From: Maribacter sp. PR1
GTDB taxonomy: Bacteria; Bacteroidota; Bacteroidia; Flavobacteriales; Flavobacteriaceae
DNA length: 64,000 bases
Reading direction: 5' to 3'
NCBI RefSeq assembly: GCF_028464145.1
Contig: NZ_JAQPCG010000006.1
Location: forward strand, 310,001 to 374,000
The position numbers were made by a program, and so were the translations under genes. The notes below the pieces were generated by a model that was not told the origin of the DNA, searched no databases, and worked only from the letters and a program-made list of their open reading frames with translations. Positions 61,535 to 63,966 of this stretch are shown here, one piece after another; positions within the stretch are counted from its first letter, which is position 1, and the number at the start of each line of letters is the position of its first letter.

Positions 61535-63103
61535 TTATTTCGCAACGTTTACAGCTCTTGTTTCCCGTATAACCGTAACCTTTACCTGTCCTGGATAGGT
61601 CATATCCGTTTGTATTTTTTGTGAAATTTCAAAGGAAAGCTGTGCCGCTTTATCATCGTTCACTTTTTCACTCTCCACAATAACCCTTAGCTCCCTACCT
61701 GCTTGGATTGCATATGCCTTTTGAACTCCACCGAATCCGAATGCTATTTCTTCTAAATCCTTTAAGCGTTGAATATAGGAGTCCAACACTTGTCTCCTTG
61801 CTCCTGGACGAGCACCACTAATGGCATCACAAACCTGCACAATTGGTGATATTAAGGTCTTCATTTCTATTTCATCATGGTGTGCACCGATAGCATTACA
61901 TACCTCCGGTTTCTCTCCGTATTTCTCAGCCCACTGCATACCTAAAATTGCATGGGGTGTTTCTACCTCAGCCTCCGTATTTGGAACTTTACCAATGTCG
62001 TGCAAAAGACCGGCCCTTTTGGCTATTTTTGGATTCAATCCTAATTCTGATGCCATTACTCCACAAAGTTTAGCTACTTCACGGGAGTGCTGCAATAGGT
62101 TTTGTCCATAGGAAGAACGATATTTCATTCTACCAACGGCTTTAATTAATTCTGGATGAAGGCCATGGATACCTAAATCGATTACCGTCCTTTTTCCAAT
62201 CTCTACAATTTCTGCCTCAATTTGTTTTTCGGTTTTCTTAACAATTTCCTCAATTCTAGCAGGATGTATTCTACCATCTGTGACCAATTTATGCAAAGAC
62301 AATCTCGCTACCTCCCTTCTAACGGAGTCGAAGCAAGACAAGATAATGGCCTCAGGCGTATCATCAACAATAATTTCCACTCCGGTAGCAGATTCCAAGG
62401 CTCTAATGTTTCTTCCTTCCCTACCTATGATTCGTCCTTTGACGTCATCGGACTCAATATTAAAAACCGAAACACAGTTTTCAACGGCCTCCTCGGTACC
62501 AATTCTTTGAATGGTATTGATTACTATTTTCCTAGCTTCCTGTTGCGCCGTAAGCTTTGCTTCTTCAAGAGTAGTTTGTATGTAGCCCATTGCATCAGTC
62601 TTGGCCGTATCCCTAAGACTTTCTATCAATTGACTTTTGGCTTCCTCCGCGGATAGGCCAGAAATAACTTCTAACTGTTGTACTTGACTATTATGAAGCT
62701 TATCAACCTCTGATTGTTTCTTTTCAAAAAACTCTCTTTTATGCTCAACCTCTTTAATCTTGCCCTCAAGTTGGGAATTTAGCTGTTTATTTTTGGCAAG
62801 CTCACTGCTAACTTGAGACTCTTTATCCCTTGTTCTTTTTTCTGCCTCCCCAATCTTTTTATCCTTTCCTATGATTACCTTCTCGTGTTCTGCCTTTAAT
62901 TCTAGGAATTTTTCTTTTGCCTGTAGTATTTTATCTTTCTTTATACTCTCACCCTCCACTTTGGCCTCTTTCAAAATTTGTGCGGCATCTTTTTTTGCAT
63001 TTGCAATTGTTTTGGAGGCCTTACCCTTTTCCATAAACTTGGCGATGGCAAATCCGATGGCCAAACCAACGATACCAGCTATTATAATCATTGTACTATC
63101 CAT
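61535..63103 (-). CDS. rny: Ribonuclease Y
   Basis: Membrane-anchored endoribonuclease that starts mRNA decay. From ATG 63103 (522 residues): N-terminal membrane helix ([19 protein letters not shown]), long coiled coil (about 25-200), KH domain [19 protein letters not shown] and HD domain with [11 protein letters not shown] and ETPHAILG. The upstream in-frame TTG frame to 63187 would run through the structured RNA described below and is rejected. Bacteroidota often rely on RNase Y in the absence of typical RNase E. Confidence 0.95.
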
Positions 63104-63115
63104 AGTTTCATATTT

Positions 63116-63288
63116 AAAAAAAAGCCCACATTGGAGAAGTTTTGTACAAACTCCTATAAACAGGTTTAGGGCTAACAGACTGATCAAGGATCCTTATACT
63201 AGTAAGGCTTGCTTTTACAACCTAAACTCACCCTTTTTAAACTAATTAGTGTTGAGTTCGTCAAAAGATAATACCAATGTGGGCAGTA
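63116..63288 (-). ncRNA. ssrS: Structured RNA between zapA and rny, probable 6S RNA
   Basis: Minus-strand transcript of about 170 nt. The arms GCCCACATTGG (63284-63274) and CCAATGTGGGC (63134-63124) pair perfectly and are followed by eight T (63123-63116), so the closing stem also ends the RNA. Inside, TTTTG pairs CAAAA and ACGAACTC pairs GAGTTTGT (one G-U), then comes a large central bubble of about 26 and 9 nt, then GTTTAGG pairs CCTAAAC, and a terminal hairpin has CAAG-CCTTA against TAAGG-ATC-CTTG. Long rod, central bubble and terminal stem is the 6S RNA plan, and the zapA neighbourhood is the classical one. An rny attenuator is the main alternative. Confidence 0.68.
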
Positions 63289-63313
63289 ACTTAATGTATT
63301 TATAAGAACGTTT

Positions 63314-63610
63314 TTATTTTGAAGCAAGCTGTAAATTCACCAATTCCGAAAGCGCTTTTAAACGCTCCTCGGCTTCTTTGGTTCCTTCAGTCTGTTCAAT
63401 GCCTTTCTGCTCTATTTTCGAAGCAAACTGCAAGGCGCACATAGCCAATACATCCTGTTTGTCCCTTACAGCATAATTCTGCTCAAATTTCTTGGCCAAA
63501 TGTTCTATATTTTTGGCCGCCTTTCTTAAACCCTCTTCCTGGCTTGGGTCTATAGTCAAAGGATAAACCCTATCCGCAATTGAGAGCTTTATTTTGAGCT
63601 TTTCCGACAT
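63314..63610 (-). CDS. zapA: Cell division protein ZapA
   Basis: 98 residues. Binds and bundles FtsZ. It has the ZapA start SEKLKIKLSIADRVYPLTI, a helix EEGLRKAAKNIEHLAKKFE, then the coiled-coil half with DKQDVLAMCALQFASKIEQ. It lies 11 bp after the coiled-coil gene. A structured RNA and rny follow downstream, giving the unit coiled-coil-zapA-RNA-rny. Confidence 0.92.
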   Translation of the reverse strand: MSEKLKIKLSIADRVYPLTIDPSQEEGLRKAAKNIEHLAKKFEQNYAVRDKQDVLAMCALQFASKIEQKGIEQTEGTKEAEERLKALSELVNLQLASK

Positions 63611-63621
63611 ATTAGTTTACA

Positions 63622-63912
63622 TTATTCCGAAAGTTGCGCTATACAATAATCCAACTCCCTTATCAATGTATTTATTTTAAGCTTAGCTTCAGTTTTGTTT
63701 GTATTACTGCCAAGCATTGAATTTGCTAGTTTGAGCGAATTATATTTTTCCTCCCATTCCGACACAGTTTTCTGTGCGTTTACCTGATTGGATTTAATAT
63801 GATTTAATTCATCTTCCAACGTCCTATTAGCCTTGTCTAAAACCTCCAACCTATGAAGCAACTTACTAATTTTATTCTCTAAGGAATCAACGATTTGAAT
63901 TAATTCGCTCAT
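63622..63912 (-). CDS. Small coiled-coil protein upstream of zapA
   Basis: 96 residues, almost entirely predicted coiled coil with heptads (IVDSLENKISKLLHRLEVL, LEDELNHIKSNQVNAQKT). No membrane segment. It is reminiscent of ZapB in size and fold but shows no certain homology. Being co-transcribed with zapA by its own good promoter, a role at the FtsZ ring is likely but unproven. Confidence 0.8.
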   Translation of the reverse strand: MSELIQIVDSLENKISKLLHRLEVLDKANRTLEDELNHIKSNQVNAQKTVSEWEEKYNSLKLANSMLGSNTNKTEAKLKINTLIRELDYCIAQLSE

Positions 63913-63936
63913 ACAAAAATTCGATGCGATTTACAC

Positions 63937-63966
63937 AAAGTTAACATTCGTTTGCAGACTTAGCAA
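63937..63966 (-). promoter_or_regulatory. Promoter of the coiled-coil-zapA unit
   Basis: On the minus strand TTG near 63966-63964, a 19-20-bp spacer and TAACTTTG at 63944-63937. The box ends 24 nt before the ATG at 63912. It probably also feeds zapA and the structured RNA. Confidence 0.7.

Follow-up and report, generated by a model that had tools for sequence, protein, structure and literature searches.

Between the genes for the cell division protein ZapA and for RNase Y, the minus strand of the window (the whole stretch of 64,000 nt of DNA that was analyzed) carries a 173-nt element at positions 63116-63288. It raises the question of which structured RNA is encoded there, for which the original prediction had offered a probable 6S RNA or else an attenuator of rny, and of how such an RNA would be produced between two protein genes.

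Identity and structure of the RNA

The original prediction had named the Rfam 6S and Bacteroidales-1 models as the comparisons to make, and the outcome was divided. In a cmscan analysis of the entire 64,000-nt window the sole Rfam match above threshold was to RF01685 (6S-Flavo), which spans 63257-63148 on the minus strand, uses model positions 1-108 and scores 106.7 bits against a cut-off of 85 (E 6.9e-18). The general 6S model, RF00013, covered the entire rod at 23.6 bits (E 0.012) and remained under its cut-off of 46.4; the Rfam comparison of the region reported no match to Bacteroidales-1. A search of the organism's own genome gave this one 6S-Flavo match and no second, which removes another clear 6S locus as an objection to the identification. 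With 6S-Flavo, as the family is portrayed in part of PMC2864571, the window RNA shares sequence and core structure at a score above the family cut-off; it differs in that its closing stem, terminator, operon and boxA-like leader lie beyond the 108-nt core (63148..63257, minus strand) to which the RF01685 model is confined. The complete 6S molecule is a rod of ~170 nt whose closing stem leads into a run of T residues.

Across the family of the window, 194 of 199 sampled genomes had a single 6S-Flavo match (182 of them above the cut-off), and a match was found in all 165 high-completeness genomes of that sample. At the level of the class, a full-length model of 172 positions, which was built in part from loci of the same class sample, identified a 6S RNA in 102 of 390 genomes at E <= 0.001, and RF01685 alone matched 28 of 395 genomes at E <= 0.01 (8 above the cut-off), both class counts having been obtained behind strict filters. 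One genome (G046) matched the full-length model twice (E 2.0e-15 and 1.7e-5), as against once for each of the others listed, and L017 is a 6S gene at another place in the same genome as L269. Two RF01685 matches, L020 and L021 (E 0.002-0.004), are probably false, with zapA and rny absent nearby; their genomes were not among the full-length-model matches from the 390-genome sample, which may not contain both.

The 173-nt minus strand folds at -50.4 kcal/mol (z = -4.16), and 0/200 dinucleotide shuffles were equally stable. For the comparison with relatives, 145 of 152 loci were kept based on a stem of at least 10 pairs and a length of 150-212, and the alignment was made from the 41 full-length sequences that stayed below 82% identity. 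The rod that is conserved around the central bubble has 37 pairs in six helices, for which 95.9% of the cells were paired (81.8% in shuffles), with double changes at 27 of the 37 pairs (21.3 shuffled) and a covariation score of 0.526 (0.247 shuffled). None of 500 shuffles attained any of the five measures, and the paired cells fell to 30-43% when the partners were slid by 1-3 columns. Covariation across the zapA-rny interval had been put forward as a check on the original prediction, and it proved to be strong.

The closing stem is a perfect 11-bp repeat between GCCCACATTGG (63274-63284, minus strand) and CCAATGTGGGC (63124-63134, minus strand), which lie 139 nt apart and are followed by eight T (63116-63123, minus strand), just as had been described. 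Although this stem is outside the Rfam model, 98.4% of its cells were paired and 9 of 12 pairs had double changes. The inner closing helix, which adjoins the central bubble and in the alignment pairs TTTTGACGAACTC (63254..63266, minus strand) with GAGTTTGTACAAAA (63140..63153, minus strand), was similarly conserved, with 98.8% of cells paired for the CGAACTC/GAGTTTG part and with AACTCAAC, within its 5' strand, invariant in the 41-sequence alignment. Among the further stems that had been proposed, this helix held up and GTTTAGG/CCTAAAC did not: the complementarity is present here, yet 60% of cells were paired and 152 of 500 shuffles were as good, the conserved pairing at that site being AGGG/CCCU plus a separate apical helix. 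A hairpin of UAAACUU and GGAGUUUA in the 3' bubble strand was weighed by eye only and excluded from the count. An extra apical insertion, at most a few dozen bases long, was seen in 6S RNAs of the wider class and in some flavobacterial ones (alignment columns about 92-142, in rows such as L018, L019, L022, L023, L026 and L028).

The family score, the single match in the genome, the covariation and the occurrence throughout the family agree with the proposal of a 6S RNA, and the element is almost certainly the 6S RNA (6S-Flavo) of a Maribacter-like flavobacterium; the RNA itself is a member of an already named family. The 6S RNA of E. coli is a rod with a central bubble, as is the window RNA. 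The E. coli gene, ssrS (RF00013; zapA-ssrS-fau), also resembles the window gene in lying directly downstream of zapA, and differs from it in that the next gene is fau there and rny here, in addition to the RF00013 score of the window RNA being below the cut-off. Closer to the organism, passages of PMC9723704 report a 6S RNA transcript in Flavobacterium psychrophilum, and for Bacteroides thetaiotaomicron, a related member of the phylum, part of PMC7366714 describes the detection of 6S RNA together with dRNA-seq evidence for pRNA. By analogy, the mature window RNA should function as other 6S RNAs do, with binding of the sigma-A polymerase and templating of pRNA predicted.

Gene order, promoter and terminator

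On the minus strand, the 6S RNA is preceded by a 96-aa coiled-coil ORF in the zapB position (63622..63912; named by position only, as it had no Pfam match above cut-off) and by zapA (63314..63610; PF05164, 67.7 bits, E 1.1e-18), which is directly upstream of it, so that the claimed zapA neighbor is indeed present. It is followed by rny (61535..63103, minus strand; PF12072, 121.4 bits, with KH and HD domains), for which the closest RNase Y in named records is that of Maribacter sp. 4G9 (97% identity). The rny ATG, at 63103-63101, is 12 nt past the T-run, a spacing that the original prediction had given correctly.

This order is widely kept. Of 156 6S loci, window included, 147 were flanked by zapA upstream and by rny downstream in the same orientation, and each of these also had the zapB-position ORF; high-scoring matches are overrepresented in this set of loci. 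The remaining nine comprised three loci without either gene, one at a contig end, and five with zapA but no rny in reach. These five (L069, L071, L117, L126 and L142) come from members of the family with small genomes (1.2-1.8 Mb), in which zapA and 6S are kept and there is no rny within 1.5 kb downstream. The stem, promoter and motif counts given for 152 loci omit L017, L020 and L021 (no zapA) and L095 (contig end). When the loci were anchored on rny, a full-length 6S match was found just upstream in 79 of the best 80 rny loci (566 found, all close relatives), and the sole exception, L398, had only 42 nt of upstream sequence. In the wider class, by which we mean genomes outside the order of the window, zapA was upstream in 42 of 60 loci taken from among the full-length-model matches, 39 of which also had rny downstream. 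The other 18 (L226, L233, L236, L238, L245, L253, L256, L257, L260, L263, L265-L270, L274 and L276) are 6S genes elsewhere, without zapA and without rny downstream either. Of 30 other loci found with the full-length model, 24 came from genomes already represented, and the remaining six had both zapA and rny in 6/6 cases. At the level of sequence, the link between 6S and rny is well supported.

To locate promoters, we used the sigma-A -7 consensus TAnnTTTG given in parts of PMC9723704 and PMC7366714, with mononucleotide shuffles as the reference, and the scan covered the sigma-A consensus only. Of 152 loci, 151 had the box in the 120 nt that precede zapB, as compared to 17.9 in the shuffles (maximum 27), and its commonest position was 32 nt ahead of the ATG. 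In the window it is TAACTTTG (63936..63943, minus strand), the putative promoter of the whole operon. Further downstream the box was no more frequent than in shuffled sequence: it was found in 2/145 loci in the 80 nt before 6S (6.2 shuffled), in 21/145 inside 6S (23.4), which leaves a promoter for rny within 6S unsupported, in 0/142 between the T-run and rny (4.7), in 1/62 of the longer gaps between T-run and rny (5.1), and in 1/42 of the 60-nt stretches before zapA-linked 6S genes of the wider class (1.3). As a positive control, RNase P RNA genes carried the box within 60 nt upstream in 19 of 22 genomes. Most likely, a single sigma-A promoter before zapB serves zapB-zapA-6S-rny. Since neither 6S nor rny is preceded by a sigma-A box more often than chance would give, transcription of rny probably depends on polymerases passing the 6S terminator.

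That terminator is very probably the closing stem with the T-run, which is predicted to be of the intrinsic type with a loop of ~140 nt and would define the 3' end of the 6S RNA. In relatives, the stem beside the T-run had a mean of 11.8 contiguous pairs (G-U allowed) versus 6.9 with the 5' side shuffled, and 130 of 147 loci had at least 11. From the end of the T-run to rny, the median distance was 22 nt in what is mainly the flavobacterial set (121/142 within 40 nt). It was longer in the wider class, with a median of 64 nt and 9/38 at most 40 nt, a distance that is inflated because the first T-run was taken, which is sometimes inside the RNA. Among the five loci for which no rny was found downstream, stem and T-run were retained in L069, L117 (with a 7-bp stem), L126 and L142, and in L071 the stem was retained and a good T-run was absent. 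The retention of the terminator in four of the five implies that it is primarily the 3' end of the 6S RNA itself.

Those four loci also speak for a competing explanation, namely an ordinary 6S gene that has no part in the regulation of rny, in which 6S and rny would each have a promoter of its own, of an unrecognized type, the neighborhood would be simply inherited, and the terminator would do nothing beyond insulating 6S. So do the 6S genes that lie outside the zapA-rny context in the class, as 4 of the 18 have a sigma-A box within 60 nt upstream (0.8 in shuffles). We nevertheless consider this explanation rather unlikely, as it is at odds with a gene order retained so consistently, whether the loci were anchored on 6S or on rny, and with the finding that sigma-A boxes did not exceed chance anywhere between zapA and rny, nor before the zapA-linked 6S genes of the wider class. 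On balance, then, rny would be expressed mainly by read-through of the 6S terminator.

A boxA-like motif after zapA

Directly after the zapA stop, the relatives have a conserved motif of the GTTCTTTAAAATA type. Of 152 loci, 124 have its strict form, GYTCWTT, no more than 70 nt beyond the stop, and among the 28 loci without it, 13 carry GTTCTTA. For comparison, the gamma-proteobacterial boxA consensus, as given in a section of PMC5725501, is GYTCTTTAANA. To relate the motif to the rRNA leaders of these bacteria, a matrix was built from nine Flavobacteriaceae rRNA leaders and used with a threshold of 6 bits. Of the 152 gaps between zapA and 6S, 76 scored at least 6 bits, compared to 2.1% of dinucleotide shuffles, and five control zones gave 0-8 loci each. 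The copy in the window, GTTCTTATAAATA (63297..63309, minus strand), which begins 4 nt past the zapA stop, is weak and off-consensus at 5.3 bits, below the threshold, and the match to rRNA leaders is carried by the set of relatives.

The nine leaders of the family have sequences of the GTTCAT(T/A)(G/A)ACATAT type, 124-185 nt before 16S, and GTTCTTTGAA-type sequences are present in the rRNA leaders of seven genomes from other families. At base five, the nine Flavobacteriaceae leaders have A and the 6S motif mostly has T. No 16S gene was found in the organism's own assembly. Two genomes (G207 and G327) have GTTATTTGACAT in their rRNA leaders instead and GATCTTT at their 6S genes, and two loci of another family (L015 and L016) are without the motif, despite GATCATTGACATA in the rRNA leaders of one of their two genomes, G294, the leader sequence from the second genome being truncated.

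Relative to mononucleotide shuffles, 37 of 42 zapA-linked loci of the wider class had the strict form in the 150 nt that lead up to 6S (1.2 shuffled), and the looser GYTCWTW was present in 76/76 rny-anchored loci with a recognized core (79 examined; 2.5 shuffled). The motif was also identified in 5/6 of the additional zapA-rny loci, the stretch taken for L209 being misplaced owing to a contig end. With regard to the 18 6S genes without zapA, the form G[ACT]TC[AT]T[TCA] occurred within 60 nt upstream of 10, as compared to a mean of 1.9 and at most 6 in 300 rounds of dinucleotide shuffling, and the strict form upstream of 6 (0.6 shuffled, at most 4). The occurrence of the motif at part of these genes indicates that it is not tied to zapA. 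Conversely, inspection by eye of the E. coli zapA-ssrS gap found GYTCTTT to be absent, and the motif is therefore not merely shared with zapA-6S synteny.

Two other structured RNAs were examined in the same way, with mononucleotide shuffles. In the tmRNA set (L320-L341, 21 loci after L333 was dropped as too short), the strict motif was within 60 nt upstream in 7/21 genomes (0.4 shuffled) and the looser form in 10/21 (1.6 shuffled), the 60-nt counts being used because some of the 150-nt tmRNA matches are T-rich runs. The tmRNA gene of the organism's own genome (L322) has a boxA-like GTTCATAAACATATT 15 nt upstream. For RNase P RNA, the 60 nt upstream contained the strict motif in 0/22 genomes and the looser form in 1/22 (1.9 shuffled).

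By analogy with rRNA leaders, it is quite likely that the motif is a working boxA, with binding of NusB-S10 predicted, and NusB and Rho genes are both present in the organism's own genome. Like the boxA of rRNA leaders and of suhB, as these are presented in part of PMC5725501, it has the core GYTCWTT in what would be a transcribed leader, located in the window after the zapB promoter box and zapA and before a structured RNA. It differs from them in that it precedes 6S inside a protein operon. A passage of the same paper states that non-coding RNAs were not considered. The weak window copy, and the fact that within the family the motif is close to the 5' end of 6S, would also be consistent with a different kind of element, either a promoter element of some other kind or a site at which an RNase cuts to mature the 5' end of the 6S RNA. 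For such an element one would have to account for the situation in the wider class, where the distance from the zapA stop to 6S varies from 4 to 123 nt but the motif begins 0-23 nt past the stop in 38 of 42 loci, as well as for the match with rRNA leaders and for the excess of the motif upstream of 6S genes without zapA and of tmRNA genes but not of RNase P RNA genes. We thus regard a role unrelated to Nus factors as unlikely.

Proposed synthesis of 6S RNA and RNase Y

The reading that we favor, and which is probably correct as a whole, is that of a zapB-zapA-6S-rny operon with a boxA-like leader, in which 6S RNA would arise by termination and the rny message by read-through. Promoter, zapB, zapA, boxA, 6S, terminator and rny would then form one transcription unit. 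As in rRNA leaders, the boxA-like sequence would recruit NusB/S10 and other Nus factors to the polymerase, and the polymerase so modified would make the 6S precursor. The complex bound at boxA could shield the untranslated RNA from Rho and could also aid formation of the long-range closing stem, which would form during synthesis of the T-run and end most transcripts, giving the 3' end of the 6S RNA, and the 5' end would be cut from the zapA transcript. A minority of polymerases would read through to produce the RNase Y message. The mature 6S RNA would mimic an open promoter and hold the sigma-A polymerase.

6S RNA is usually very abundant, which is hard to reconcile with its synthesis solely from a cell-division operon. 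In the case of rRNA, part of PMC10250234 describes the leader-trailer helix as essential and boxA mutations as costing 2- to 3-fold in E. coli.

With respect to rny, regulated read-through is an unproven candidate. Of the rny attenuator in the original prediction, the part that stands is the arrangement, with stem and T-run just before rny and no sigma-A box for rny beyond chance; speaking against it is that the terminator is also kept where rny is not found downstream. A true attenuator, in which the 6S rod would toggle between terminator and antiterminator folds with the level of polymerase or pRNA and so set RNase Y, is improbable despite the placement of the rod just before rny and the ability of AAACUCA to pair with UGAGUUU (78.7% of cells), since this helix, the single candidate examined for a conserved and mutually exclusive antiterminator fold and rejected as a refolding switch, had no covariation (0 double-change pairs, 500/500 shuffles as good, 5' strand nearly invariant) and by eye is gone in wider-class alignment rows, and since the GTTTAGG/CCTAAAC stem was likewise unsupported.

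Returning to the boxA-like leader, we tentatively raise the possibility that 6S RNA in the Bacteroidota is made like rRNA: a boxA in the precursor would load a Nus complex that holds the 5' end for timely formation of the closing stem, the Nus state would decide between 6S and rny, and boxA would be a mark common to the rRNA and 6S genes of this phylum and to some of its tmRNA genes. In searches of open-access text, limited for some to the top-ranked matches, we found no description of the broad conservation of 6S in one operon with RNase Y or of a boxA-like signal preceding it, nor any connection between 6S RNA and boxA in the texts so searched, where co-mentions of the two were unrelated. 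The boxA-like leader, not found described in these searches, is the most interesting part of the locus. If the boxA works, Nus factors, which are seen mainly as rRNA machinery, would also help to make an RNA that restrains the polymerase, and the supply of RNase Y would depend on read-through of the 6S terminator. If true, one Nus-controlled branch point would balance transcription capacity, through 6S, against RNA decay, through rny.
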